From Mesaphorura yosii (Eukaryota; Arthropoda; Collembola; Poduromorpha; Tullbergiidae): 64,000 bases of DNA. A model generated the notes under the pieces. It was not told where the DNA came from. It ran no database searches and saw only the letters and a list, made by a program, of their open reading frames with translations. This document shows positions 3,001 through 37,160 of this stretch, piece by piece (the first letter of the stretch is position 1; each line of letters begins with the position of its first letter). The translations under genes and the position numbers were made by a program. The DNA is taken from positions 1 through 64,000 of the forward strand of contig WIXG01000347.1 in the NCBI GenBank assembly GCA_009869945.1, in the 5' to 3' direction.

Positions 3001-6000
3001 TCAATGGGTCATTCTTCAAACTGAAAGTACGAAGCGACTAAAGCTGTCTCTGTCTCGAGTCAGTGTACAATTATTCCAAACTCATCATTACAGGCAAAAT
3101 AATATTGTAATTGAGCTAGTGCAAGGGAATTGGATGGTGATGAATCGGATTTAAAGGGCTCCAGTGTGAGGAGTTTTGTTCTTATTGAATTTCAGTGCTT
3201 AACAATCCGAAGGGCCCCTTCTCAAGTTCGGGCCGATGAATATTTCTCCTGACTTGACATTATTTGAGACAAGATCTCCGTGCGGAAGGCCACAAGATCA
3301 ATTTATTTTTATTACTGCATTTACATACGATACGCGGAATACACTTATTAAAAGCGTATAAAGCTTAAAGGACAGGAAAATGATGACGATGATTATTTCT
3401 CGAAGATTGAATACGGATAGAGAGCCAAATCATAGCGAGGTAAGCATGACTCTGATCCTTTATCTCATATTTTATCATTCATCGTCGTCTCACAAAAACA
3501 CTGCGTACTACAAGATAAATAATTGTCATTTTGTACTTTGTGACAAGTGGCAATCAAGAATAAAATAAATGTCAAGCCTTTAAACCTGCACTGCCGACCT
3601 TTTCGTCCGTACAACCACAGCTCTCTGCGGTACGACCACGCTCTAAACTACTGCTTGCACGTATCACGCCAAGCTCGGAACTCGACAAAGTGACAAGTTA
3701 CAGAAAATGTCCATGTTCGGTAGCCCAACGTTCAGACCTGCAATTGAGCCGCATTACACACAGGACATTGAGTGTTTAAGAAATCTTACACGTTAATGAC
3801 GCAAAGATTCAAGATTCCAGTTGGTTCAAGCTTCGAATTCAAGAATGGAGCTCTCCAGATTTGCGCCTGCAACCTTTAGCAAGCGAAGAACACAAGCATT
3901 CATAACTCATCCAAATATTGACATTAATTTATGCATAATTTACAGCTGCTTTGTTATACTTTTTCTATACTTTTACTTTTGGTAGCAAGTAGCAAGATCT
4001 CTCGTGTACGGCAATCAGTCAAAATGTTTATCTGTCACTTTGTAGTTACAATGGCATTTATTATCGACGTAATTTAATAGCAGAGCGACTTCACACTTTG
4101 GGTTAGCGTAAAATTCAAATTAGCAACCTGATAAAAACAAATGCGAGAAAACGAAGCGTGTAATCGCGGTTGAAATATTGCAATCGACGAATCAGGCACC
4201 TCAGCGTATAAATCATGCCGGGCACGCAATTCGTACACTTCCTTACATGGGTTGTGAATTTGCAGTGGAGATTTAACGGAATTTTGAATGCTGACTGTCG
4301 AATTTCGTAAATTCAGGCAACCGGCTTCGCAAATAATCTTTGGACAATTCTTGTTGAAAAAAGATGGGAAGTCGATACACATTTTTTATAAACTTTGCTT
4401 TTATTCGACTTTTCCTGTCTCGGGTTTGAGAAGCGATGCACTACAGGAAGGACCATCACGGCGTTTTAAATTGGTTGCCGGTCGCATGTAAAAAAAAACT
4501 GGCCGACCAACTGACCACCACGACCAAAGGAGCACTCTGTCTTTCATTGTGAACAGCAACAATGCTGCGATGCTCTACGAGTGTAGAGAATTGGAACAGG
4601 AAGTCAATTACTTTCAAATTGACGTGAGCTTACATGAAAGCTTTGCTGGAAGCCATGCTCATTATTTTTGGTTTATATAAATTTATGCAGAGAATCTTCT
4701 TGACTTGCATTGAGTGCTGGAATGAATTAAGCATGTGTGCTAATAAAAATCATTGCTTAATCCATACACTTTGTGTGCTCTATCAGCTGGCTCCAAATTT
4801 GCCCCTTAAACAGCAAACAGCAAGCTACTCGCTCGACTTTCGCTTTCCCATTTTCAATCTCTCGTCTCATAATTGAAGTTGCCCTACCGCCCCTTATCAT
4901 GCAAGGGGTCCCTTGTCTTTTTACATGAAGGAAGCTTCATATATGCTGGTGCTAATAAAACTTACTTGACTCGGGAACTCGGTGCATAATTTGACAACAT
5001 TGCTCCCAATGGATGCATTATAAATATTATTAGCACACTTACACAGCTAAAACTGATGTATGTAATGCTAATTTAAATTATTTCTGACATGAAAAGCTTT
5101 GAAGCTTGCCCTGGGATTCCGAAAAATACGTTCACTCTTGCTCGCTGCATTGGCGTAACAATTACCTAACTGATACTTCTTGATTCTGATTATACTGTTT
5201 CGGTCCTTTCCATTCACTCATTTCGATTAATAAAAAGCAAATTCTTGCGCTTGTCTCGCTCCCGCCGCCGTGTAGTTGGTTTATTCCGACCGGACTCTCA
5301 CCGCGATTGAAATTCAAACGACAGCTCGGATCGTATATCATTTGTTTATCATGCTCAATGTTGTAAGTATGATAAGTATGATTTGCTGAGTTGGCAAATG
5401 ATATCTAATTTATTAAATGATATGCATTAAGAAAGCGCAGAAGCCGAAGTCGGACTGCTCTGTAAGACGCTCATCATTTACATTCCGCTCGACCATCCTG
5501 CAAGATGGGTTCAGGTCAACTAATCATCAGAAAGTGATTTATAGAATTCAACTCTCTGAAACAATGTAATATTTCAGAAATTATCAGCAAGCCCCATCTC
5601 ATTTTTTGTGACTCGATTTGTTTGCGTGAAATATTTTCTCAAATCAAGTTGCGTTGTTGCGATTACACGAATTTGTTCAGCTAATTTACTTTGTATCGAG
5701 TGATAACAGGTTTTCATTAATTGTCAAAGAAAAAGTAACATCGTTTGATGTTTGCCGTTAGAATTCTAGTGCAGATGTTCCGCCGCGGCTGACAGTCGTC
5801 ATAAATTTAATTTCACGAATTAATGTAATTGCTTCTGCAATTGCGGTGCTCCTGTGCCAATCTTGATACTAAATGTCAAAGATGACCGACTCAGAGAAGA
5901 GGATCATCTGTTTCGTATGCCAAATGTTCTTGGTTCATAAGAATTCGTTCATCACAACGGATCGCTTGACAACTTTTTGGTCAATTCGAAAACGCTACTC

Positions 6001-9000
6001 AATTAAAAGGAATTACGTAGTCTTCTCAAACTTGGAGAATGAACTTCTTTGTGGAGTGAAAATAGAACACAACAGGAGGCCGTCAAAGATATCGGAAATT
6101 TCTCATGATTAAACATTTTCAGGGTAATTACTTAACGTAACGAGAAATGGGGCGCAGTAAAATTTTGAAACATTTAAGGTTTCATGGCCCTAAATAGAAA
6201 GAATGGGTGTTAACGAGAAAAGTTAAGAATAAATTTCCTGTATGGTTTCTAGGTCAAGGCTTGGCGGTGTCGGTGTCTTAATGATTCTAAGTAAATTGTG
6301 AGACAATTTTGAGCTGTGCATTTCACAAGGTTGTTAACAGCTAATCGGGGCAGACAATTATCCTTCCAGTACTACCAGGCGCAAGCAATGAGCAGCAGCT
6401 TTCATTTCAGCAAAGTGAAGTTGAAGTTGGCTTAATTTCGTATTCACGTTTTAATTGCAAAAGAACGGAAGTCGAGACAATGAAGGCTGAAAGGGCATCA
6501 AGCCAACAACTAATGTGTTTCATTTACCCTGCTGCACCGTTTTTCCGCGCAGCTTTTCTCTGGATTGCTGCCGCGTCGGTCGACTCCTTGTCCTGAGCAA
6601 AAAAGTTGAACTGGTTAAATTAATGTAAATTGAATAGAATATTCAAATTGAATTTTTGACTTGACGAACGTTGAAGTTGACGTTGACAAGAATTAGTCAA
6701 ATTTTTGTTGAAGGGTTAATTAAATATTGTGGCCAAGGCACTCGCGCTGTGGGCTGAGCCAAAACTAATTTAATTTGCAGGCAGGAGTCAAGAACAAAGC
6801 TGCAATTATGCATCAAGCTGAATGTTTGTGCAGAAAAACGATTGCGTGTGCTATGAAGTTATTATGTATGTGCAAATATTTAGTGTATGTTCGCAAAAAC
6901 TTAGTTAACAAATTGGCGCTAACAATGCGAAGAAAAAGTCGCAGCCTCTCGCATGTCGATTGCCGGAAGGCCGCCCTTCGCTCCATTTCAGCACTGTCTT
7001 AACGATTTCTCGCCGCACTTAAAAACCAAATATGACACAAAACAAGGGGTTTATTTTAGCAATGCCATATGTTCAGGTAGGCATTATTATGCCATTATTT
7101 TGGAGGTGCTTAGCACATTTTCCTTCTGCGCTTTCAAGCCTGCGACTTGGTGAAACCTGCCTGCTTAATGAGTTTCGAGCAAACATATCATTTTATGTAA
7201 ATACTTACAAACTTTTTTCTGTAAGTCTAAAAAGTTGTAACTTGTAATGAGTTATTAAACAATGACGCTTCCAAGGGCTGTGCAATTTTTCAACATGCTT
7301 CTACTTTTCACCTCTTTGTTTCAAGATTTGTTGTAAAAAAAACACCAATTTTGCGTTTCCGATGGGTAACACATTGAACTCGTGATAGCCGCTCATTTGG
7401 CAAACGATCATGACTTCATGCGTAGCAGACGGACGAAATGGGCGAAACTTATGTATTTAATGCATTTCTTTACCACTTTTTCAGGAATCGAATGGCATTC
7501 GATGAAACAGAGTAATAATTATAACAGAGACAATTGATTTTTTGGCATTTCCTGTGTAGCTTAGCCACTTAAAAAATCAGTACCGGTATGACGTCGAAGA
7601 ATTTCCAATTTCCGAATCCTCCGGTTTCGCAAGTAGAACGATCCTAAAAATGCAATCGTAAAATTAACTCAAACGAGGTAGAAATTCAAAATATAAGCTT
7701 CTTTGATTTCTTGGTCAATCTTTCAGTGCTAAACCTTTCAGAACAGAGATTCGCCTGATTCTGCACACACAACGACGCATTTTAATTGGAATTCGTTAAG
7801 TTTTCAACTTATCTTCGCCCAATCTAGTTCTTAATACAAGTGCAAGCATGCAATGGGTGACGAAAACTGGATTGGCATGGAAGTAACAAACTCCAAGCAT
7901 GAGAGGGTTTTGAACTACATCACATCGCATCTCGGCCGTTCGTGGTCGTGTTGCATTTTGTAAAGTGAACTCAACTCCACGAGACGAAAGTTCAGCTTTG
8001 ACATTAAACGGTCGTTGGGAGATTAGATTTAATCACACAAAACGTGCAAATTTATAATAGCAAAGACAAGACACCAAATCAATTTTTTGTTGAGCAACTG
8101 CATTGCAACTTCATTTAATCGACTACTCGCTGTTCTCTTTATGCGGTTGAAGTTAGATCATCAAACATGCGAGCTCATTATAATCAAGAACAGTTGACGG
8201 CTTCGAGCGAACGTAATTTGAGCAGGCAGCAGGGGTAATGAGAAAGCTTGTCCCGAGATACAATAATAGAACAAGTTTTTTTAGAATTTGTCATACTAAC
8301 GCTTCTTAATCAATAGGCTTCATCATTTTCATTGTCCGGCAGTCATCATTTGCATTTTGCATTCTCCGATTCGAATCTTGTCCCTGCACTTTGCCATTTT
8401 CCTAAGCACGTCCACAGCGCACAAGTTGAAATATTTCGCGACGGCGATTTACAAACTCGGCTCACAAACATATTCTCATGGCTCATAAACACCGAACGGT
8501 ATAATTACTCGCAATTTATCGTTAAACATTAAGTAATTTTACGTAAACGATGTAAGCAAATTAAACCGACTCGCATATCACCAACTGTAACATGAATTAT
8601 GAAGGATCGTGAATATTTTGCAATTATTAGACTTCACATGATATTAATTGCTGAGCATGCACATATTTCAGGAATTTATGGGACATGTTTTATGCTCCGC
8701 TGCGTTCCCGCAACAGCGAACAGTTTTTAACGCGGATTCGCAGTGCAATCGAATCTTGTTTGACAACATGTATAAAGTGGTCGTGAAATTCTTGTCCGAT
8801 TATTTAGCTGCACCCAAGCCAAAGCCAAAGCGCGCATCTTCTGAATTTAGAAGCTCTGCAATTTTTTGCAGTGGTCTCCTGCTAATTGATGGTGGTTGAA
8901 TATTACAGGGTGTCAAATCCCATTATTATTTGAATACTCCTTTGAATTACGACAAGAGGCTTAACAAAAGCTGAATTTATAGAAAGCAAAATTGTTTTGT

Positions 9001-16012: not shown

Positions 16013-18019
16013 TTAACATTTCATCATAACTTTGACCTTGAAAGTTGGCTTCTTGCATGCAGAAGCGACGACCTCACCCAAGAGAACAAGCAAAGCCGTC
16101 AAACTGCCGATGAACCACACAATGAAGCAACTGTACAAAGAATCCACTGGTAACGGCTTGGCATCAGTTGAAAGTTCCGCCAAGACTGCGTCAATCTTTC
16201 GCTTTATCTGCGACTTTGGCTGAGATTTCAGCCATCCCGCGCCCTGCGTCTTGGAATGGATCCAGTCATCAGAAATCCATTTTTCATACAAGCCAGAAGC
16301 AAATGATTGTATAAAATACATGTCAAAGGATTCAGTAAGCGGCGATCGTTTGCGAAACAGAAATGAGACCAAGATGTGCTGTGCTGGTTCCCTCGACTTC
16401 CGAAGGAGCTCATTTCTCGGAGTGTGTGGGTTCAGCGTGATGTTCGTATTCGCGCCAAAGTCGCCGTGATACTCCCAATCCAAGCAAGCTGACTTGTCAG
16501 TGAGCACCATCGCAATCAGGCAGCTCTCCGACGTGTTGTACAAAATTGCTCTCTTACTGATTGTCTTCAGAGTGGGATCAGGAGAATCCTGCGCGTACTT
16601 GTGAGCCACTCCGCCATAATATCTGAAGAATATTTTGTAGTCGCCCTTCAGCAGGTCCTTGTGCGTCTCAGGAGTTGGATCGCCCTCACCGAACGTTAAA
16701 AACTGAAACAACTTCGAGCGGTAGCCGTTTGCAAGGATGAAGCAGAAGAAGGCCCACATCAGGATGATCAGCCGAATGCGGGTGCTGCCACGTTTGCTCC
16801 GTGCCGTCGAGGCTTGTTCCAGCAGAATCGTAATCAGAGACGTTACAACCTCCACAAACACGTGTTGGTCGAATCGGTGCTGTTGCTTTTTCTGAGATTT
16901 AAAATACATTGATGCGCCGAAGTAGTATACTGGAATCATCAACAAGAAGGTGACACCTGTGCAGAGCCAAACTACTTCATCCAACGGCCAAAGAAATGCT
17001 TCCCAGTTGGTCCTGATCGGTGGTGCTCGAACGTAGAAGATTCTCCGAATCCATGCGAAGGGAATTCCTGTGTCGATGACGAGGTGTCGGTCGCCGGTGA
17101 TTCCTGCACTTGCTCCCATGTCCGCGTTGCGTTCAAAGACATCGCCAACCAGTCCGTACCACTTTCCATTCCGTTTGAAGCCTGAGGCACCACCACTACT
17201 TGCTCCTGCGATTGAAAATGTAAAATTCGCGTGCTCCCCAACTGCCTCTACCAGTGAGTAGTACACGCCGCGACCTTCCTCCAGGCTGCCATTTGGGAAA
17301 TTCTTCCACCTCAGCATCGGTGGACCAACCACGGCGGAGATGTGAAAATGCTTGCCGTTCAAAAGGCTTGGACACTTTCTGCCGAAGAGATTCAATGACT
17401 TCCCGACAGTTCCACAGCATCCGTCCAATATTTCCAGCAGCTTTGGAATAGGAGTTGCTGACACACCGTATTTGTAGCGCAATTCATCCACAAACGCGCT
17501 GCTCATGAATTTGGCGATGATTGCGTTTGTTGAGACGTACACGAAGTAGTCCTTGTGAGGACGACTTAGCCGAATCAGCACGAGCTCAATTGTCAGTGCC
17601 TCTATTGCTTGAATGACAGAGTTGATGTTGCTATTTTGCCTGACGCTCGCCTCGACGAACACGAGTTGACAATTTGGAACGAATTTTGAGGGACCGAAAT
17701 GTGTGACTTTCTGGAAATCCTCGTCTGATCTTAACTCTTGTTTGAAAAATTCCCTCCGTTCACTGCAGTTGCCCATGCGTGAATGCAACACTAATGGAAC
17801 TTCATTCAGCTGGTCGAAGTGAATGCCTTCAAGTTGCAAGGGATGTTGGTGCGCCAAGATCCAAGTTTTGCAGACGTTGTTGTTACCGCTGGAGCTTTGT
17901 GCTTGGACTATGCTGATAGCTGTGGATAGCCCTGGCACAGAAATTGGCAGAGTGGAAACTTCAGCTGAAGTTTTTCCAATCGGGATCAAAATTACAATCA
18001 GTCCAAGAATCCGAAACAT
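16013..18019 (-). CDS. Divergent ionotropic receptor, intronless
   Basis: The gene encodes a 668-aa ligand-gated cation channel subunit of the ionotropic receptor (IR) branch of the iGluR superfamily, expected in chemosensory neuron membranes. From the chosen ATG (MFRILGLIVILIPIGKTSA, a good signal peptide) there is a divergent N-terminal domain, an S1 half-domain (about 222-343), M1 (about 349-368), a pore helix (about 389-403), M3 with ANGYRSKLFQFLTF in place of the iGluR SYTANLAAFLT signature (about 415-440), an S2 half-domain, and M4 (about 629-653). In S1, GITGDRHLVID aligns with the ligand-binding T-x-x-R block, so Arg311 is kept. The same frame stays open for 52 more codons to an ATG at 18175, but that start would bury the signal peptide. 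It is head-to-tail with a paralogue 354 nt upstream. The ligand is unknown. Confidence 0.93.
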   Translation of the reverse strand: MFRILGLIVILIPIGKTSAEVSTLPISVPGLSTAISIVQAQSSSGNNNVCKTWILAHQHPLQLEGIHFDQLNEVPLVLHSRMGNCSERREFFKQELRSDEDFQKVTHFGPSKFVPNCQLVFVEASVRQNSNINSVIQAIEALTIELVLIRLSRPHKDYFVYVSTNAIIAKFMSSAFVDELRYKYGVSATPIPKLLEILDGCCGTVGKSLNLFGRKCPSLLNGKHFHISAVVGPPMLRWKNFPNGSLEEGRGVYYSLVEAVGEHANFTFSIAGASSGGASGFKRNGKWYGLVGDVFERNADMGASAGITGDRHLVIDTGIPFAWIRRIFYVRAPPIRTNWEAFLWPLDEVVWLCTGVTFLLMIPVYYFGASMYFKSQKKQQHRFDQHVFVEVVTSLITILLEQASTARSKRGSTRIRLIILMWAFFCFILANGYRSKLFQFLTFGEGDPTPETHKDLLKGDYKIFFRYYGGVAHKYAQDSPDPTLKTISKRAILYNTSESCLIAMVLTDKSACLDWEYHGDFGANTNITLNPHTPRNELLRKSREPAQHILVSFLFRKRSPLTESFDMYFIQSFASGLYEKWISDDWIHSKTQGAGWLKSQPKSQIKRKIDAVLAELSTDAKPLPVDSLYSCFIVWFIGSLTALLVLLGEVVASACKKPTFKVKVMMKC

Positions 18020-18205
18020 TTTGTAACGATCCAGCACTACTGGATTCAATGACCTGAGCGAAACTACTGGATTCAATTCGTCTTTCACTGAGTTTTCTAA
18101 AGACTTTGAGCAGTCATTCATGTAAAGCAGGACGTTTTTTGACTGGAAAATAATGCCAGTTAATGCTGAAAGCATTGTTTGTCTTCTGTCATCTTTGCTT
18201 CATCG

Positions 18206-18217
18206 TGTGACATAAAT
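18206..18217 (-). promoter_or_regulatory. 12-mer shared upstream of both IR genes (copy 1)
   Basis: The 12-mer ATTTATGTCACA (minus strand) lies 187 nt upstream of the chosen ATG of the first IR gene. An identical copy lies 206 nt upstream of the second IR gene in the same orientation. It may be a common regulatory site or a remnant of the duplicated promoter; nothing else shows function. Confidence 0.35.
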
Positions 18218-18373
18218 TGCCAGTAGAAATGGGCGAATGAATAGAATTCGAAGAAAGGAATAGGACATGAAAATTGAGATTGATTAAACATGTGAAAACA
18301 ATTCATCAGTGACTGACTTATTCGGACGTTGTACGACATTCAAGCATTTCAATTACCAGTTCTCACTGTTTCT

Positions 18374-20591
18374 TTAAACATGGTCAACATTCACATCGCG
18401 GGGAAAGTGCGCTGCTAGGCCTGAAGTTTCAAACGTGACATCCTGCAACGGATGAATCTCGTGAAATTTTGACTTTTGTACCACCTTCTTCATCAATCTC
18501 GGGACCACTTCAAACATGAATGCGATGAGCCCGGCAACGTAGCCCAAAAGTACCGTGACGAAGATAACGTGCAGACTGGTTTTCGTCAACGGTGCTGGTC
18601 CGGAAGAATCCTCCTTTGCCACATGCATCAAGACCGTCCTTAATTGAGACCCCTTTTGTTTCTTGAGCCATCCTGCGCTTGCGACTTTACGCTCCAGCCT
18701 GTCTTTATACGTCCAGTGCATCAGGAGTCCCGAAGCATGACTTCTCAGGACGACCTTGTCAAAAAATTCGATGAGCGGCGAGTATTTTCGAAATGCCCAC
18801 ACGAGAGCCGCCGCCGAGTCCGTGTCAACAGAGCGTACGAGAATCTTTTCATAAGGATTCACGGCGTCGTACGTCCCATTTGTAGCAATCGCAAAATCAC
18901 CCGTGAAGTCATAATCCAGACATGCCACATTCTTGTCCAAGATTGCTGGAATAATACAGTCTTGGGAAGTGTTGACCAGCGTGCTTTTCTGAATAATTCT
19001 CTTGTGCTTTGGATCTGGCGAATTAACTGCCCCCAAGTATGCAATGCCGCCGTAATAACGGAATAGAAGTTTAAAGTTGGATAAGCTGAGTTCCAAATGG
19101 GTTTTCGGAATTTCTTCTCTTTCCAGAAATGTGAGGAATGAGACCAAGTTGCCCCGATAGCCGGTCCCAATGACGTAGGCAAAGATGATCCAAATTATTA
19201 GCAGCAGCCGCATGCAGAACCATTTCCAATTTCTGATCGAGAGTCCTTGCTCCAGAAGCACTTGCAACAAGGTCATTGGGACATTGATGGCGCTTCTTCT
19301 TCCACTTTCACCTCCTTGTAATTGAAGCGTGCTGCGGTCTTGATGTAATCGTTGACTTGTGGCGATTATATAGTGATATGTCGGCAGCGCTGTCAGAATC
19401 GTCACCAAAGTTCCAATCCAAACGTGCGAGTGCAGTGGCCAAAATATTGATCTCCACGTGTTATGGACGGAGGGTTTTCGAATGTAAAAAACCCGCGCAA
19501 GCATCGAGGTCAGGGACGTTGCGTCAACGACGTGGTGGCCTGAGAACGTCAATCTTCGTTTAAAATTGAGGACATGAAATTATGAATTACAACCTTGACT
19601 TACGATGAACAGTGACTCCTGTGGCGAAGGCGACGTCCGCTTCTCGAGAGAAGACTTCGCCAATTGCACCCTTCCAGACACCGTCCTTCTTGAAACCAGA
19701 CGCACCACCAAAACCAGAGTACTGGATGTCGAATGTGAAATTATGCTTGAAACTGGCCTCTTCCAACATGATGAAATAAATCCCAGCACCAGATATCCGT
19801 CGGCCAGTTTCAGGGTCGTTTACATATCGGACCATTCCGGGACTCAATGTGGAAGTGGCTCTAAAGTGTTTGCCATTCACCAAGGAAGGGCAACTGCGAG
19901 AACGCAAATTAGAGGTTGATGCTTCTTCAGGGTTGAGTGCACAGAAGTCCAATAGTTTGTAATCTTGTAACGGTGACTGTGAATCCGATCCGTCTTGCAA
20001 CCAAATTCCGTACTTGAAACGAATATCTTGGAATTGCTGTCTATTTGAAAATTCCACCAGCGCCGGACGTTCACCGACAAAGAAGAAGAAATCGTTGTGC
20101 GGTCTTGCGACACGTCGCAATAATAGTTCGTTTAGGCTCCTAAACACCTGACCAGGTACGTTTGAGACGGGTACCAAAGTACACATCCCGTTGGGAGTGA
20201 ATCGCAACGTTCCAAAAATTAATGGTTTGAGTATGTTTTCTGTTGGAATCTCGCGATCAAAGAAAGTAACGTTTTGTTGCGTTGGACTTGAGTCACTTAT
20301 CCTCAGGACTGAGTAAACTGATGATGCAAATGAGAGGTTATCACTGTTGTCTTGCTTCTGTGTCGCTTCGTCTGCTAGGAAATGGAGCTCAGTGTTGGGA
20401 CTCGGTCCATTGAGCACAAATATCCATGTTTGGCACGCGTCTTTTTTATCTTTCAGGAACAATGGAACTCCTGGTGAGATCGAGATATAATTTGGCGTCC
20501 CATACTGACTTCTTTTGATGACAGTTGACTCCAAAAGCCCTAAAACTAAGCACAACAGCGCAAGCACCCGATTTGTCAAAAGGTGGTTCAT
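18374..20591 (-). CDS. Divergent ionotropic receptor, two exons
   Basis: This 717-aa paralogue of the neighbouring IR gene is spread over exon 1 (19604-20591) and exon 2 (18374-19539). The 64-nt intron has a GTAAGT donor and ...TTCTCAG acceptor and splits the codon of Arg330. Splicing yields GVTVHRHHVVDA, which aligns with GITGDRHLVIDT of the other gene and with the iGluR T-x-x-R ligand block. The start MNHLLTNRVLALLCLVLGLL was chosen because it gives a signal peptide; two further in-frame ATGs lie upstream (20606, 20666). M1 is at about 369-389, the pore helix about 416-428, M3 with GTGYRGNLVSFLTF about 438-461, and M4 near the C-terminus, followed by a cytoplasmic tail longer than in its neighbour. 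Both genes keep paired Cys in S2 (C..P/A....ACLD). Ligand and expression are unknown. Confidence 0.92.
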
Positions 20592-23500
20592 GGTTTCGTG
20601 GTTCATGGAATGTTGGGTTCGACTGACTGACCAGAGGACCAGGTTTCTTGCTTTGCTCCGGGACAATGTGACAAGATTAGCGAGACGGGAAAGTTAATCA
20701 GTATTATTGGATTTAAAAATTCATCAGAATGCATCACTAACATTTCCCACTAGCTACTCGCGGGAAAATGTATCAAAAGTGCCTGGCTTTCATGCCTGTG
20801 ACATAAATATGAGATGCGAAAAGCCGATGTCATGTAGTGGTAGAAATGTATCTCCTTTGCCACCGTCCGTCACGTAGGCCCCGAAGAACCCCATAGTTTG
20901 CTAATTTAATTGCATCATTCAGCTTAGTGTTTGTTGACTTCGTGCAGGCTAGTTGGTCATTTTCGCGAAAAACTATATTTTACCGAGCTTTGTTTTTCAT
21001 ATGCGCGTCATCATCTAATTGAATTGTTCAGTAGCTCAGAAATAGACATTTTCGTGCGGTTGAAATTTATGGAATATTTTTTCGAGAGACCGGCCTTGGA
21101 TTCCTATTTTAGTGAAATTTGGCTAATGCTGGTGAGCGATTGTGTTTGTTACATTTGATACCGCACTGGCTCAAGTCTTGATTCATAATTGCATCATTAT
21201 CTTAATAGAGTTTCAGCGCACATGTTCTAACTCCATGCCATACCATTCATCATAATCGTCGTTGTTAATATCAGGACCAATACATTATTTCTGCCATCCT
21301 TGTCAAGCAAAAGCAAACGCACTCGAACGGAGTCTGAACATATCCTTCGCTGTTTCAGTCTCAATCTCAAAGCAAACATAAACACAAACATCGAAGGAAT
21401 TACTGCGAGTGCGAGATACCAATAGGAGAAATGAGAGTTGGAAATACAATATATCTGATTCAAGTTTCATTTTATATTACGAACGTGTTCCGAATGCATA
21501 AATAAAGAGAATCTGAAAATCTATTCGCTTTACATGCTTTCGGAGGGCATTTACTATTTTCAAGAGGACAACACGGGCCACGAGCACTCCTCGGCTGGTA
21601 TTCTGGCATTTACCTTTGCTTAGGATCGGAATTCTACGGCTGCTGCCGCTGCTGAACGGGCATTTCCATCAGATTAAAGCTTGGGTTCAATATTTGGGTA
21701 AAAATATCCATAAAAATTTTATAGGCTTATTAGTACGTATTTATCGCGAGTACATGGCCACAAAACAAGGCCCACGTTAATGTTATCAATTTCATTAAAC
21801 TCTTGAATAATTATTAATTAAGGAATGAGCAGGCCATTTCCTTTTCCTGTCGCAGCCTCGCTTCGCAAACACGCTAAAGCAAAAGCGGCGCAAGCATGCA
21901 ACGCAGCCATTCTTCCTGCGTTCCTGTCAACAAATCATTAAATTAAACAAAGCCGAGTGGTTAATTGGATGCTTACTGATCTCTGATCTCTCCTTTGCAT
22001 TGAGTTGCGTTTTCTCAACCCACAGATTTTTCGCATGCCTGATGAGCACCCGGACCAAGTTTATGATCTTGTTATGGACTGTTAATGAGTGTGATATGCG
22101 AGTCGAGACGGGCTGGCTTGGGAAACTGGTCCTGGCCTGCATAAAAACCATGTTCACCTGCGCCGAATCCAGAAGATCATGTATCGTCTGCCGTGTTTCG
22201 TGTTTCATTGAAACTCTCTCGCGTAGAGCCCAACTCAGTACGTATTTGTTTCATTATGTAAATATACGAGCGTGAATTGGAAAGGGTAAAAGAGAAGCAG
22301 CACAACAGCGTCTCTTGTCAAGTGTGAGATGAGGAGTTGGTGACTTGCAAGTAATGTTTAGAAGACCAAAGACCAAGATCCGAGTCTTTTGTTTTTTACC
22401 CTTTGCTCATCATGTTTTCCCCGATTCTTCTCATTTTGGATCTTCTTGCTTGCATGGTCGGGCTTTATTAAAAGCAGGACGATGGAATGGGAGCAGGAGA
22501 ATGCGATCTCCCTTCTCTCGGTCGCTTATCACCATTATTAATCTTCATCGGTACTGCTTTTCACACGAGTCCATTTTTTCATTTTGTGCAGGGCAATGTG
22601 TAATGCGTAACGTATTGTGCACACTCATTTCACATGTTGGTGATTCTCCTTTAATTTCAAAGCCGGCCAAATCGGAATCTCCTCGTCTCCCTCCTCCTTC
22701 CTTCCCTGCTTGGCTCTGACTCTGATCTGCATTGCACCTTCATTTCAGAAGATCCGAGCATAAAAGAAGTGATCTCTTTTTCATACGTTAGAAATGAGAC
22801 CCCGTGACAGTTCATTTGTAATGAATTGAAAAACAAAGACAACTTTCAGCGCAGGGTGTGAAAAAATTCACGCAGGGAAGAATTCACCTTAGAGGCCAAA
22901 CCAGGCCAGGGCAGGACAGATTGTATTCAAATCTGTGTGATCTCTGATCTCATTCAGAGCTCTTTGCATTTGCTTTGCAAAAGAATTATCTCCGAAACGT
23001 CACAGTAGCATTACAAGCATCTCTATTCATTAAAACGCGTTTTACTCCCCAAGTCATTAGGACATTTAATGCACCATTACATCGGAGCATTGAAACGCGT
23101 TGCAGAAACGAGGACGTGGCGCGGCGGGGAATGACAGCGAGGGGAAATGTGAGATCAGGCAGAAGATGCAAATAACAACATGAAATTGAAGTAATTTGAC
23201 GGTGACACTGTGCCGCAACTGTGACACATCTTCCCCTTAAAAATTCTCACAACTTTCTCACTGGCGGCTGTGCATAAATTAATTTAATTCGCATTTCTCA
23301 TTTTTTGATACGGTGTTATGAATTGGGTGAATAATCTGGTCCGAATTTCTTGAGAGGTAGGTGTTCCACACTGAATTTTGTGGCTTAATGAACATGATAC
23401 GTGAAATCAAGGACAGATGCATTTTTCTATGCGCTTCTTCGTGCAGTCAAATTATAATGAGAGCCAAAGTGAATTTTATTTGGCCGTTAAGAAAATTTTA

Positions 23501-28558: not shown

Positions 28559-30091
28559 TTTCTTGCAGTAGTTTCACCCTATATTATAATTATCCAGAAC
28601 ATTATCATCTTATTACACGTTTCAGTAAAATAATTTCACTGGCTGTGAACTTGTCGAGCCTTTAACTTTTAATAGTGGCTAATAAGGGATTTACGAAAAT
28701 TGGAATGCATTTCGCCTGAAACTCGTCCGTCCGTCATATTTTAATTTTGAGTGAGTGATTGCAGGTTGTAGAGAAGACGGTAGACGGACAAGGAAGATAG
28801 AAGCTCAAAATTGCATCTCTGAAATGCTGGCAGCCTAGTCATAATTTTTCACGATGCATTGTGATTATGATGCAAGCTGAAGTGTTTCACCTGCTAGTTA
28901 CTATTTATGGGGTAGCCACCTTTCAGAACATTTGATTACAATAACGATTTATGAACGTTACTCAGATATTTTGCAATGAAGCAAATTCATGAAGCTCGTG
29001 CAATTGATTAAGATGGAACTTTCTCAAATGAGACGGTATTTTATTGATTGCCTATCAATTCATCGCATTCTTTTCTTTCGCATGCGACGGGAATTTCCAA
29101 ATGAAAGTGACACAACATGTGTTCTTTCACTCTGTGAATGGATCAATGGATTCAAAAGGAATTTAATCATTCGATTCTTCACATTCTACGCTTTGCAGGC
29201 TGCGCTGCTTAAAATTCAGATGCGGTTTTGTGTCCTGCTGAATTCGAACGTCCACATGAAGCTTAACGGCTTGTCATTAGACAAAAGAACAAATTGAGTT
29301 GATTGGCATCATGAATTACTCATTACAAAATTACAATAGCATTAAACTGCACTCGAACTCAGAATCTGCTGCATTAAATCCTGCACGGTGTTGAGTCAGA
29401 GAAAGAAAGCGTGCGCTCAAAGTTCACGAAAAATTGTGACGCTCTGAAATGAATTCGCAAACATATATGCGAATAAGAATTGACAACCTGTCAAGACCGT
29501 GGCTAAGAATAGTTCAAAATTACAAAGGAGAAATGCCAAGTTAAATAAAGCTTGAGTTCGGCTGGCTTGCTCTTGGTCAGACAGATTTCTCTGCACTTCT
29601 CCGAAATCACTCGGACACATTCATTCAGTTGCAATTACAAATGATGACTGCTGCAAAAATAGCACAGTGAGATGTAGGATAAAGAAATTACTAATTACTT
29701 GGCTTTTAAAATAATTTCCAAGCAGCAGAGTAAGAAAAAGAAGACTCGTGGGCCAAGCCCACTTTTACACTTATGCAAGGGGTTTCCACACATTACAAAC
29801 ACGGGAGATTCGTAAATAATTGAGATTTAATCTGTAACAATCGAAGTGCGCCGGACTCGCTGAAAGGAAGCGTCATTTTAACCAACAGAAGTCACTCGAC
29901 TGCCCAGTACGCGTTCTACTCGTGTTAAAACTTCTTAAAAGGCCCGACGATATGAATCAAGTCGGCACTCGGCACCCTGGTTGGGTCCTGCCGTCCAGCG
30001 TGAAATGCATTTTCAATCTCAACAGGTGTCAGTCAGTCTGATGATGAACTTCTCATTCCTTTAATCAGCGACACTCCAATTCCGCTTCCTC
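28559..30091. other. Intergenic stretch
   Basis: I see no supported gene here. A 102-codon plus-strand frame at 28989-29297 has no recognisable feature. Close to the right end, an ATG at 29952 followed by a short open stretch could be the first exon of the next coding segment. Confidence 0.45.
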
Positions 30092-30833: not shown

Positions 30834-32002
30834 ATGGGACGAAGCCGACGAATTAGCTCATACAAGCGAGAATATCACGGACACAAGTCGCAGATCAGGG
30901 ATATTCATCACAGAGCAAGACATTTAACGAATGAGGTAAAATCTGTTGGTAAAGCTGCACCAATGAATGTGGACTGGTGAATTGATTGGCGATCTGACTG
31001 AATGATCCCTTTGTATCATCCCCAGACCGTTGAGAGCACCAGGCGGATAAAGGACCTTGTCAATAAGGTAAGATCCTGCCGCAAATTGTTGCAATGCATA
31101 AATCGATGTAGTTGAGAGTTCTCTTTCGTAATTTCAAGGGTCACAGTGCCGGAATCCTAGTTGCAGCAAAGCTCAGCGCTCAAGAAGGTATTTAGCCAAA
31201 TGTCAAGCACGTGGCACGTTACTTGCTTGACAAATTTTTGATTGATTTCCTTGCCAGAGAAGCTGAATGAATCCGAGTCACATCTAAACTCATTGCACGA
31301 CTCCGTGAAAAGTAGTTACAGGAACTTGAGAAAAATCGAACTTGGTGAGGAGCTAGGAGAAAAGCGTGGCTGGCGGTGGTTTTGCTACGTCTGTTGCAAA
31401 TGCTACAAGTGGTAACTGAATCAACATTAATATGATTTTGTGTTTCAGACGACGAATTTTTGTTAACGTACCATTCGACTTTCAGCAGAAACATTGACGA
31501 GGCCGATCGAAATCACACAAACGGTGGTGTATCGCCTCATCATCCGAATTTTCCGATTCCTAGCCTCAAAACCAAAGTACAAAAATCCTTATCTGCGCTT
31601 AAGTTGCAATATTCCAAAAACATTGGGGAGGGACCTAACGAGGACAGCACCATTCTGGTTAAGTACGTCTACTCCGTGAAAACTTGAAACATTAACTCGT
31701 TTGCACTGGAGGACTGGCATTTTCCCCAGGATAAAAAACGATTCACAGGAAAATTCAATGGAAAAGAATCTGCACGAGGTCACGTCCCTGCATGGGACTT
31801 TGAAAGGTCTTGCGTCCGATCTGGAAACCGGCTTATCGAAGTCCACAAAGCAAATCGACAAATTAAAAGCAAAGGTATCACCAAGAGAGGTTCCATCCAA
31901 AATTACAGTTTAGTGCGCACTTGATCTGTATTTCAGACATTCAGTGTACACTCGAATATGGCCATTGCACAAGACAAGACGATGAAACTGATAAAAAAAT
32001 AG
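30834..32002 (+). CDS. SNAP-25-family Qbc-SNARE
   Basis: This 244-aa SNARE drives vesicle fusion by giving two helices to a four-helix bundle with syntaxin and synaptobrevin. Seven exons: 30834-30935, 31026-31067, 31139-31187, 31258-31411, 31486-31662, 31730-31874, 31937-32002. All junctions are GT-AG, frames join, and an in-frame stop at 30816 precedes the ATG. The Qb helix (about 22-85) has TNETVESTRRIKDLV, matching SNAP-25 ADESLESTRRML, and the zero-layer Gln is kept (LSAQEEKL, Gln63). The linker has the palmitoylation-type cluster FCYVCCKCYKC (Cys107, 110, 111, 113, 116). The Qc helix (about 176-240) has KNDSQENSMEKNL, like SNAP-25 TNDARENEMDENL, but its zero-layer position is Ser213 instead of Gln. 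The linker is longer than in SNAP-25 (usual length about 206-212 aa). SNAP-29 is less likely because of the Cys cluster. Confidence 0.9.
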
Positions 32003-32082: not shown

Positions 32083-32088
32083 AATAAA
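32083..32088 (+). terminator. Polyadenylation signal of the SNAP gene
   Basis: AATAAA 81 nt past the TAG at 32000-32002, in the correct orientation and at a normal distance. Confidence 0.6.
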
Positions 32089-32493: not shown

Positions 32494-32973
32494 CAGTCGC
32501 CACATAGACACTGAAGAGCCCCCGAAGAAGGGTATCGGTTAACCTCCACATGCCAATAAGCTACCAGTTTCTCCGAATGTGGGACTTTCAACCAAACAGC
32601 AGAAGTCAGCATCCGAGCTAGAGCTTTTCTACACGAAAGATGCCAAACTGCAATCAAGCAAGAATGACAAAGTTGCAGGTGGTATAATCAAACTGATAAG
32701 TTTTCCACATTAAAGTAAATTCTCCAATTTTGGCCCAATTTGTATTTGGACGGAATAACGAACGATTCTCAAGTAGATGAAATGGCTAAAAATCTGCAGG
32801 GCTTCATATTGACGACATACAACAAGCATCTAGACCAATAATAATTACTGGAGAAGGTGGCTGATTCTTCATAAATCGGTAATACTTACAATTTCAACAT
32901 TTATGAGTCGCTTCTTCTACCCACAGACCAGCACCGCACGGGAAGCCGCTGTCATAAACCGACAAAGAGCATA
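32494..32973 (+). pseudogene. Broken tandem copy of the SNAP gene (C-terminal half)
   Basis: Fragments parallel the linker and Qc helix of the intact gene just upstream, in the same order. One piece near 32494-32535 (FSRHIDTEEP) matches CRNIDEADR. Another around 32568-32678 (PVSPN..., QKSASELELFYTKDAK) matches the VSP...QKSLSALKLQYSKN linker. A third at 32751-32870 (TNDSQVDEMAKNLQG, then EKVADSS) matches KNDSQENSMEKNL and the end of the Qc helix. The copy is broken: the acceptor before the Qc exon has no AG, about 33 nt are missing inside the Qc helix, and two adjacent in-frame stops follow. A weak match to the last exon follows an acceptor at about 32926. No Qb half was found. A very divergent gene with unusual splicing cannot be fully excluded. 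Confidence 0.65.
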
Positions 32974-33504
32974 AATACATAAAGTGGGCACAAAGAAGAA
33001 CTTCGAAACTTCTGAAGACTGACTAGAGTAAGCAGTTTGGTGGAGCCATTGACTGCTTTGACTATAATCACCAGTTAACCGGCTAAGGAAATTTTATTTA
33101 CAAAATTTGTCCAATTGAAATTCAAAGGCTAGATAAAGGTTGATCGCAGACTCCAGGATTTGGTTTGACTCTGGCGTCAGTTCTCATGCGTACTTTGTGT
33201 ACCATCTGTTATCCCGTGCTTCACACTTCATTCGACGATTTACAGTGCGGGAACGAAGAGTGTTGACTTGACCGAATTCCAAACATTATTGTGTTACCCC
33301 CTTGTACTTCTGCCTACTAGCCTGGCGAGTCGAATCAGCCAATCTATTGAAAGATTGCTGAAAGCTGAATTGCGAAATTAGGATTGTAGATCGAATCAGG
33401 CTATAATTATTACTATCGACCATCCTTATCAGCGTTAGTGCTTCGAATACTTCGAAGTTCGCCGAGCCTGACCTAATCCTGCTGTCTGTCTGCTGCAATT
33501 CACA
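32974..33504 (+). other. Leader/promoter region of the acidic-protein gene
   Basis: No coding evidence. It runs into the ATG at 33505 and probably holds the promoter and 5'UTR. A repeated palindromic CTTCGAA occurs near 33450-33463. No TATA box is obvious. Confidence 0.4.
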
Positions 33505-36500
33505 ATGTCTTCTGCTGACTTTGAACACCCCATCGAAGAAGCTGCAGCAGGTGACGAAGGGGGTGAAGTTGAATATTCATATCTACCATTCGAATTCTTG
33601 GCAAACGTAAAGCAGGAGGTTGAGGAAGGGCAGGAGGAGTTCGTGCAAGGCAACTACGATAGCGAAGATCAAGGAGCGTTCAATCATGAGATAGAAATGG
33701 ATTCCTCGGTTAAGTCTGAGGTTGAAGATATTGAAGAAGATAACGAGGAAAATAATGATTGTTTCTTTGAGTCGACTTCCAAGAGTTCCAGTTCCAGTGA
33801 AATCCTAACGGATGACTCAGAAGTATTGGAAGTAATCCAGTCGCCTACTGCCGATCCAATTCCTGTGATGTTAGTGAATTAATATTTTTTTCAGCTTTTT
33901 GTTTACTCTTTTTTGTAATACTACGTCTATGTCCATATTCTGACAGACTACCTCCGGAATCAATCACAGCAATATTGGAATCCCAGGATATTGCGGATCC
34001 GAACCCAATGATTATAGGACATTTGGGAAATGCAGCGTTGCAGCAGCTAAAGCATATCATTTTGGTAATTACAACTTTGGCTCCTTGTAACTAATCAGAC
34101 ATGCAATCTTAAATGCTATTTGGTGGTATAGGTGGCTTCGCAGGTGGCCTTCCACAATAAAGCCTCTGGAATTAGGGTCCCGGACTTTATATTCGCGGAG
34201 AAGCATTTAAATAATACTCCATATACCATTATCCATGATGGTGCCGCCGCCGCTTTTGAAGAACCTGATTATGAACTGTCGTCTAGTGGTTTACCCGTAC
34301 AAGCCCAGGGACCAATCATTGATTTAGAAGCACCAGTAAAGAATCTCGAAGGCTGGCTGGAGGGACCGGAAGAATTGAAAGAACCCTCACACACGACATT
34401 GTCAGTTCAACGGATAACTTTTCATAGCTACCAAGATGAAGAAGATTTTGAAGATTCTGAAGACAGTGGCGAAGAGTCAGTTCAAAGCGACGGCGAAAAG
34501 AAAGAAAGACAAATAGAAGCGGAAGAACAAGAGGAATCCGATTCGTCTGACTTGTTAGTTCCCAAAGAAGATGATGACGATACATTCGAAAGCACGAGTA
34601 GTGCGAATACCGATGATGATAGCGGCCATGATGGCATTCATTCGCTTACACCCAGCGAATACTACGGGCAAATGAATGGGGCTGAGGAAGAGGTGCAAGA
34701 TGGGGTGGCATTGGAAAATAAGGACACCGAAACCGCCGGACAGGAGACGGAGGAAGCGCAAGGTGATGAGGAAGAAACCGAAGAAACACCGTCCTCACCC
34801 GTTGAGGCTCCTGTCGACCCCATCGTGGTCGCAATTGTTGAAAATGAAATGGAACTCTTGGCAGGGTTGGAAGATGCATTGTCGCAGATCCCACCGGACT
34901 TTGACACGATGGGTGACGAAATATCGACAACACATGACGATACTGATGAACAAGGTTCCCGTAGTACTCTCAGCGGTAGCGAAGATGAAGGTCAGGATGA
35001 GAACTTAGACCAGGACCAAGACAATGCGATGGAAGTTGAAGCTGACGCTGCCGAAGAGAACGAAGCAGATGCTATCGTACCAAATGATGGAACTCCAGAA
35101 AACACTATTGCACACACTTCCGAAGTGGGCGCACCCGTTACGTCAAATGAAGCTCGAAAAGTTCTCAGTTCTGTTGCAGCAGAGGACAATGTCGATACTG
35201 AAGAAAATGTTGCGCTTCAAAGCGATGAAGAAACTACGGACGAGGTGCTGGAGGAGGAGGTAGATATGGAAATGGAAGTAGAATCCGATGCGTCTGATGT
35301 TCCTGCAGTTGAAAACTCAGAAGCCTCTTACTCTTCTAATAACGAAGAATCAGAAGAACCTTGCGCAGAAATTGACGAGGAAATAGAAGATGATTCCAGT
35401 TTGGCGTGGGCAGACTACATGAAAGTTTTGACCGAGGAATTCATGGCTCTCGACGATGAAGACTCACCTTCTAGCGCGCAGCAGTTGTCGCAGCTGCAAG
35501 ATGCGCGTGAGGCTGAAGTGTCGGAATTTTCTCTCTTCGTGGAAGACATTGCGAAGCATGGATTCTTGCCAATGATCTCAGTTTGGTGTGATTTCTGCAA
35601 GGATTTCTTAAAATGCAAACTGAATCCCACCGTTTGCCAAGCCCACCTTAATGGAATGCTAAGTCTGTTTGAAGCAATTCTGAAAAATCGAGTATCGGAA
35701 TGCATTACTCAAAAGCAGGTAAGCTGGATAATTTTAGAAATCTCATGTCTCTTTATATCCTAATTGTCTAAATTTCTTGCAGATGAAACAAATCCTCATC
35801 GTATTAATCGAAATGGTTTACAATTCGCCGCCCTGGGACATCCATCGCCGCTTAGTTTCCATGATTGGGCTGGTGAGTTGACAATTGAGCGAAAACTGCT
35901 CCGCTGAGTCACAGATATTGAGACTGATTTTAATTGCAGGTTTTAAAAAGCACAAAAGAAGATTTGTTATTGGAAATGATAAGCTGGATGTGCTCCTTTG
36001 TGTCAGAAACTTTCGACTGGTTCGTAAATTCAGCTCCTTGCTTTGACGATTGGGATCAGAAGTGCAGAATATTCAACATTGCGCTGCTCGTAGTCAATGA
36101 GTTGGAACAACAAGGCTTGCGCTTCATACATAAGTTCAAGTGGCACAAATTCGTTGCGAATGTGATTCGTGCCTGTGATGCTATCGCTAATTTGAGGCGG
36201 CTGGCGGTTGACAAACTCGACCTGAAGGATTTGCAAGGTATCAGGGACAAGAAATCTTCCAGCACCTCTAAGCTGGATATCGCAAAATCAAAATCGGCTA
36301 AAGACTCAGACAAATCTGAGAAAGCTGACATCAAAGCTGAAATCAAACCTGTATCTGAAGCCATAGCACAAACTCAAAATAAGGCAGCCAAAGGTGACGA
36401 TGATGGCCGTCCTACAGAGGAAATTGTGGCGCCTCAAGCTCCGGAAGAAAAGCCGGAGCCTGACTCGACGTCTGCGTCTGTCACTGTGAACGAGGATCCT

Positions 36501-37160
36501 CCATCGAACGATAAGCCTTCACAGTCTTCCAATGTTATTACAGCGGCAGAAGAAGAAAACAACAGCCCTGTCACCGACTTGGTTTCTGATGATGAAGAAG
36601 AGCCCTTGGTCTTGATCCCTACTTCGCTGACGGTGCAAACAATCCTTGATTCATTGGAGAACAAGGCACTTGCCGAAAAGTTAAGGATGGATCTAAGCGA
36701 CTTAGAAACGGACACAAGCAACGAAAGGGGAACAAGTGATAAAAAACTTAATCTAGCAGATTTTCCTTTACTTGGCAGGGAGTTTGTTCATCAGGACATG
36801 GAAAATGGAATACTGGTGAGGGATTTCGAAGTTTCTTCTGGTGTCGCAGGTTTAATATTTGCTATTTATTTACAGCTTTTCTTGAAAGCATTTTTTCGGA
36901 ACTATTCTCTCCTTGTACCTGAAGCAGAGATGGCACAAGCTCAGAGATTCGCGACTTCCTATTTTGGTGACAGGGCCAACCAGCTTGTAAGGAGCTCTCA
37001 AATGCTGGAGTTAGAGTACCCAAAGGCAAAGAGGAGAAAGAACGGAGAGGTACTTAGCACATCGGCCACTCGAAATGACCGTAAGAATGATGAAGAAAGA
37101 AAGAAAGCGGTGCATAGCCTTGAAGACTGGAGTGGCCGAGCCAAGATGGGCGGACGTTAG
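33505..37160 (+). CDS. Large acidic protein, unknown function, probably nuclear
   Basis: Six exons: 33505-33869, 33947-34064, 34132-35718, 35783-35872, 35940-36815, 36876-37160. With the last 60-nt intron removed the product is 1106 aa; kept, it is 1126 aa. Introns 1-4 are 64-77 nt with good GT-AG ends and the frame holds throughout. The N-terminus is acidic with VKQE (Lys36) and VKSE (Lys70), each followed by acidic runs, as in SUMO-acceptor sites. Exon 2 and the start of exon 3 encode an ordered segment (about 122-220), then several hundred Glu/Asp/Ser-rich disordered residues. The region from about 625 to 780 is Trp/Phe/Leu-rich and helical in appearance (SVWCDFCKDFL, WDIHRRLVSMIG, FKWHKFVANVIRACDAI). 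A Lys-rich disordered stretch and a C-terminal domain with an NLS-like PKAKRRK follow. I do not recognise the family. Confidence 0.88.
36816..36875 (+). other. In-frame, stop-free 60-nt intron
   Basis: GTGAGG...TTATTTACAG gives a good donor and a very good pyrimidine-rich acceptor, with a length like the other introns of this gene. It is a multiple of three and has no stop, so reading through adds 20 residues, including a hydrophobic run (GVAGLIFAIYLQ). The added block is compositionally foreign to its surroundings, which favours an intron. Retention would give an isoform and not a frameshift. Confidence 0.7.

Follow-up and report, generated by a model that had tools for sequence, protein, structure and literature searches.

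Can a Qbc-SNARE of the SNAP-25 type dispense with the glutamine of its Qc zero layer and remain a working protein, or is a gene with this change already on its way to becoming a relic? The question is raised by a gene in a 64,000-nucleotide stretch of DNA from the collembolan Mesaphorura yosii (hereafter the window), for which a first-pass annotation had proposed seven exons, a full Qbc-SNARE with serine at this layer, and a product that was either specialised or regulatory, or in early decay. The seven-exon count is borne out, as the exons splice into 735 bases that read open through 244 codons to a stop (Table 1). All six introns are bounded by GT and AG, the acceptor of intron 2 being AAG, which is weaker than the CAG at the remaining five. 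An in-frame TGA starts 18 bases 5' of the ATG, and the only AATAAA or ATTAAA between 32003 and 32400 lies at 32083. Stop codons, frameshifts and broken splice sites were looked for in the gene and none was found. By codon usage the gene is only weakly coding-like (0.044, where the next frame has -0.052). Scanning the window for Rfam families and tRNAs gave no matches. Elsewhere in the window, three long frames on the reverse strand (16016-20693) match ligand-gated channel and glutamate-binding domains, as in ionotropic receptor genes, the domain match of the third falling under the Pfam cut-off, and two long open frames of 543 and 408 amino acids on the forward strand (34132-37160) have no Pfam match at E 0.01. 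The cuticle domain Chitin_bind_4 is matched 66 times in the 93-Mb assembly.

Table 1. Positions in the window of the divergent SNAP-25 copy and of the decayed pieces downstream of it.
Feature	Position	Strand	Remarks
Gene, seven exons	30834..32002	+	Spliced open frame
Exon 1	30834..30935	+	N-terminus and first part of Qb motif; intron 1 phase 0
Exon 2	31026..31067	+	TVESTRRIKDLVNK (SNAP-25 SLESTRRM...); intron 2 phase 0, AAG acceptor
Exon 3	31139..31187	+	Qb zero-layer Gln63 (CAA 31181-31183); intron 3 phase 1
Exon 4	31258..31411	+	Last part of Qb motif, plus Cys cluster WRWFCYVCCKCYK-C; intron 4 phase 2
Exon 5	31486..31662	+	Linker; intron 5 phase 2
Exon 6	31730..31874	+	Bulk of Qc motif; intron 6 phase 0
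Codon TCC	31842..31844	+	Ser213, Qc zero layer (SNAP-25 Gln174)
Exon 7	31937..32002	+	End of Qc motif, then stop
AATAAA	32083..32088	+	Possible poly(A) signal
Decayed tandem copy	32495..33017	+	Three colinear pieces
Relic, linker piece	32495..32641	+	E 0.003; in-frame TAA at 32540
Relic, Qc-start piece	32755..32799	+	ITNDSQVDEMAKNL; E 0.10-0.22
Relic, Qc-end piece	32970..33017	+	Weak alone, E 2.2

Judged by its homology and its introns, the gene is a paralogue of SNAP-25 and belongs to the SNAP-25 gene lineage. A phmmer comparison with PDB proteins gave a SNAP-25 match over residues 18-240 (E 4.3e-14), and the Qc motif alone aligned ungapped with squid SNAP-25 (1l4a; E 4.6e-8), so that the earlier Qbc-SNARE reading is upheld by homology over both SNARE motifs. 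A Pfam search by itself would not have revealed the gene, since V-SNARE_C reaches only E 0.076, under its cut-off, and the linker domain PF00835 is absent from the protein at E up to 10 and has no match on C347, the contig to which the window belongs. The genome holds three intact canonical SNAP-25 genes (C112, C46 and C83), each with Gln in both zero layers, together with a SNAP-29 (C302; PDB SNAP-29 match, E 1.3e-18). All six intron phases of the divergent copy (0, 0, 1, 2, 2 and 0) are common to C112 and C46, the latter having one extra intron; five of the six introns fall in the same alignment column in the three genes, and intron 4 is displaced by a single column within a gapped stretch of cysteines. 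This common structure indicates that the duplicate was made at the DNA level, and it speaks for the exon 4/5 junction by which the Cys cluster WRWFCYVCCKCYKC is retained. A shorter model, with a donor at 31345 and an acceptor at 31449 (234 amino acids, the serine then being Ser203), likewise leaves the frame open; it was set aside because the Cys cluster is missing from it and its exon 4 closes in phase 1, whereas C112 and C46 show phase 2 after the cluster. Chance assembly of unrelated exons is ruled out by the two E-values and the six shared phases. A tree gave long branches and no supported fork, and left the long branch of the divergent copy without placement. Of the canonical genes, C83 (reverse strand) is a SNAP-25 paralogue with a single intron in its coding part, and C112 has two alternative Qc exon pairs (3058-3501 and 5407-5698) whose products differ at three residues only, with the zero-layer Gln in both Qc exons.

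The zero layers were read from an alignment of seven rows (the divergent copy, C46, the two C112 isoforms, C83, SNAP-29 and one PDB SNAP-25), on which layers were placed by what we take to be the heptad spacing of the neuronal complex, the computed check covering only the Gln at positions 53 and 174. Glutamine occupies the Qb zero layer in all seven rows, Gln63 of the divergent copy matching SNAP-25 Gln53 as the first-pass annotation had it, in a numbering that fits the 244-codon model. At the Qc zero layer the divergent copy has serine and the six comparison rows have Gln. That Ser213 stands at the position of Gln174, as also proposed, is confirmed by this alignment and by a clear ungapped register: unshifted, the Qc motif has BLOSUM62 scores of 59-80 against four SNAP-25s, and none of the other shifts of up to 11 residues scores above 5. 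On a strict residue definition the protein therefore lacks one of the two glutamines, and we class it by descent, among the SNAP-25 paralogues, and outside the Q-SNAREs that are 3Q:1R in the strict sense. It is highly improbable that a wrong gene model or an assembly error masks a Gln at this point. Some room for such an error is left by a model drawn from DNA only, by the weaker acceptor of intron 2 and by the alternative exon 4/5 junction. Against it, the TCC codon differs from CAA and CAG at all three bases, which excludes a single sequencing error as its source, and it lies within exon 6, ending 30 bases ahead of the donor and away from the junctions. The clear register and the fit of all six intron phases to SNAP-25 argue in the same direction, and when SNAP-25 proteins and Qc peptides were run against the window by tblastn, no second intact Qc exon appeared, so that an alternative one carrying Gln was rejected.

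The first-pass annotation drew its readings of the product from the zero-layer change, a weight that proves too high when it is set beside the overall divergence of the protein. Identity between the divergent copy and the SNAP-25s is 25-28%, compared with 57-66% among the SNAP-25s themselves (leaving out the two C112 isoforms, which are 99% alike). The divergent copy keeps 27 of the 64 motif positions that are invariant in C46, C112, C83 and the PDB SNAP-25, Q174S being one of the 37 changes, and 17 of 30 when SNAP-29 is added to the invariant set. What persists is the heptad pattern of both motifs: hydrophobic residues (VILMFAC) fill 21 of the 29 non-zero layers and 14 of the 74 other positions (one-sided Fisher p 5.5e-7; Qc layer +8 was omitted because the PDB reference piece stops before it), compared with 24/29 layers in the SNAP-25s and 20/29 in SNAP-29. 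Besides Ser213, the unusual layer residues are His196 (Qc -5) and Ser70 (Qb +2), both of which would be expected to weaken the core.

Divergence on this scale, with 37 of the 64 invariant positions changed, is also what a gene in early decay might display, if selection had been lifted recently and the open frame had so far escaped a hit. The surroundings of the gene lend this some colour. When the window was searched with the exon peptides, the gene's own exons being masked, a decayed tandem copy was detected immediately downstream as a colinear three-piece chain of 63.8 bits, compared with a maximum of 39.2 in 240 dinucleotide shuffles and 18.8 in the reversed window. No AG occurs in the 25 bases (32730-32754) that precede its Qc-start piece, which reads into an in-frame TAA TAA from 32839. 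The relic linker is matched only by the peptide of the divergent copy and by none of the other SNAP proteins used, which suggests that the divergent copy's own lineage was duplicated in tandem and that one copy died. At the DNA level the alignment of gene and relic scored 329.2, which is not above the null, as 60 shuffles reached 333.8 and other stretches of the window as much as 349.8; since only the protein-level chain is significant, the duplication looks old. A lone Qc-like piece with a stop, upstream on the forward strand (29369-29449; E 0.02-0.04), may or may not be a further relic. On the reverse strand of C302, a SNAP-29-like copy broken over three frames (about 3002-3623) lies beside the intact SNAP-29 frame (reverse 5581-6318). 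The tandem relic and this broken copy together indicate that SNAP copies do die in this genome.

The divergent copy itself has none of these marks. Its lack of any stop, frameshift or broken splice site stands against the in-frame stops and missing acceptor AG of its neighbour, and its layer pattern persists at a divergence where simulated neutrality closed every frame: of 300 runs in which C112 took point mutations without selection down to 27% identity, none stayed open (7.8 stops on average), a result that counts against long-standing neutrality and not against very recent loss. Early decay is therefore not favoured; we regard it as unlikely, and as less likely than a specialised, non-synaptic Qbc-SNARE.

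The nature of that specialisation is indicated by the linker and by the contact sites of synaptic SNAP-25. The linker carries a cluster of five cysteines, putative sites of S-acylation, in keeping with the three to five found in SNAP-25s and unlike the linker of SNAP-29, which has none. The zDHHC17-binding consensus [VIAP][VIT]XXQP (PMC4571948), present in all five SNAP-25 rows compared, is absent from the divergent copy. In the acidic patch D51/E52/E55, through which SNAP-25 is described as binding the C2B domain of synaptotagmin-1 (PMC4878868), D51 is replaced by Ser and E52 by Ala, E55 being kept, as in SNAP-29. C46 also has no acid at position 52, so that loss at this position is not peculiar to the divergent copy. 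Retention of the Cys cluster with loss of the zDHHC17 motif and of D51 and E52 would fit a membrane-anchored Qbc-SNARE that acts outside fast calcium-triggered release.

A change in one strand of the bundle might in principle be offset in another, and the other SNARE matches of the genome were inspected at the zero layer, which we located by motifs that we presume to mark it. Among the eight synaptobrevin-family matches listed, seven have the zero-layer Arg and one is a fragment; among the eight SNARE-domain matches listed, five have the zero-layer Gln, and the remaining three start just past the layer, after an exon boundary. A compensating partner for Ser213 was thus not seen among the matches listed, and the expected central layer is 2Q:1S:1R.

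Taken together, these features lead us to a preferred reading, to which we give a probability of about 60%: the gene would be an intact, fast-evolving and specialised SNAP-25 paralogue, a non-synaptic Qbc-SNARE with a 2Q:1S:1R layer that serves fusion in a restricted cell type. The 'specialised or regulatory' half of the first-pass annotation accords with this, given the intact frame, the retained heptad layers and Cys cluster, and the lost features of zDHHC17 and synaptotagmin contact. The two SNARE helices would join syntaxin and VAMP in a four-helix bundle as its Qb and Qc strands, the central layer holding two Gln, a Ser and an Arg, and the Cys cluster would anchor the protein to the membrane by S-acylation, probably independently of a zDHHC17-type enzyme. 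With the features tied to synaptic calcium-triggered release lost, the task of such a protein is probably fusion in some restricted cell type. Its expression, its S-acylation and the enzyme responsible, its partners, its fusion activity and its cell type are steps that we infer from sequence.

Whether a bundle with such a layer could function is a matter on which the reports gathered here are mixed, several of them describing changes that were well tolerated, and none of the passages cited covers Ser in SNAP-25. SNAP-25 with a double Q-to-E change supported exocytosis and a zero-layer syntaxin mutant rescued worms, while zero-layer changes were harmful in yeast Sec22, yeast Ykt6 and syntaxin 17 (all as related in PMC5937789). 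Replacement of Gln by Arg in a Q-SNARE is described as costing function, which a return to 3Q:1R often rescues (PMC11091695). Among the papers listed by searches of open-licence PubMed Central, no report was seen of a SNAP-25 without the Qc zero-layer Gln. A further reading of the gene takes its departure from recycling: the protein could be an inhibitory or regulatory SNARE that joins syntaxin and VAMP, whose zippering or recycling is impaired by Ser213, His196 and Ser70, and which thereby modulates the fusion driven by canonical SNAP-25. The weakening of layers Qc 0, Qc -5 and Qb +2 in a protein that has kept its Cys cluster would suit this role, as would the proposal that the zero layer is important for disassembly by NSF; however, the same source allows that disassembly is still possible with mutated zero layers (PMC4520572), and the double Q-to-E SNAP-25 was active in exocytosis. 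We think such a role improbable. 

More speculatively, a lineage-specific derivative of SNAP-25 may have given up 3Q:1R altogether and work in vivo as a 2Q:1S:1R Qbc-SNARE, possibly an inhibitory or slow-recycling one; this bolder claim is doubtful, and were it true the protein would amount to a natural experiment on the purpose of the zero layer. If the gene is expressed, nature would have supplied an animal Qbc-SNARE that lacks Gln at the Qc zero layer, on which the role of 3Q:1R could be tested in a protein kept by evolution instead of in point mutants. The gene likewise exemplifies the shedding of synaptic contact features by a SNAP-25 copy whose fusion core stays.

Compared with known systems, the protein looks like a specialised copy of a familiar one and not a new kind of machine. 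Bet1, which has a single SNARE motif and acts in ER-Golgi traffic, provides a parallel at the zero layer although it is not a Qbc protein. In the fungus Beauveria bassiana, Bet1 is given as having Ser where the Qc zero layer usually has Gln, Sft1 as having Asp and Syn8 as having His (PMC11204939). SNAP-29 is closer in architecture, being a Qbc protein that likewise lacks the zDHHC17 motif and the acids at positions 51 and 52, but its linker is without Cys, both of its zero layers have Gln and both of its motifs lie in one exon. The closest likeness is to SNAP-25, with which the Qb and Qc motifs align without gaps, and which shares the Cys-rich linker and, in C112 and C46, the six intron phases; from it the divergent copy departs in its low identity, in Ser for Gln174, in the loss of D51, E52 and the zDHHC17 motif, and in 12 extra residues ahead of the Cys cluster.
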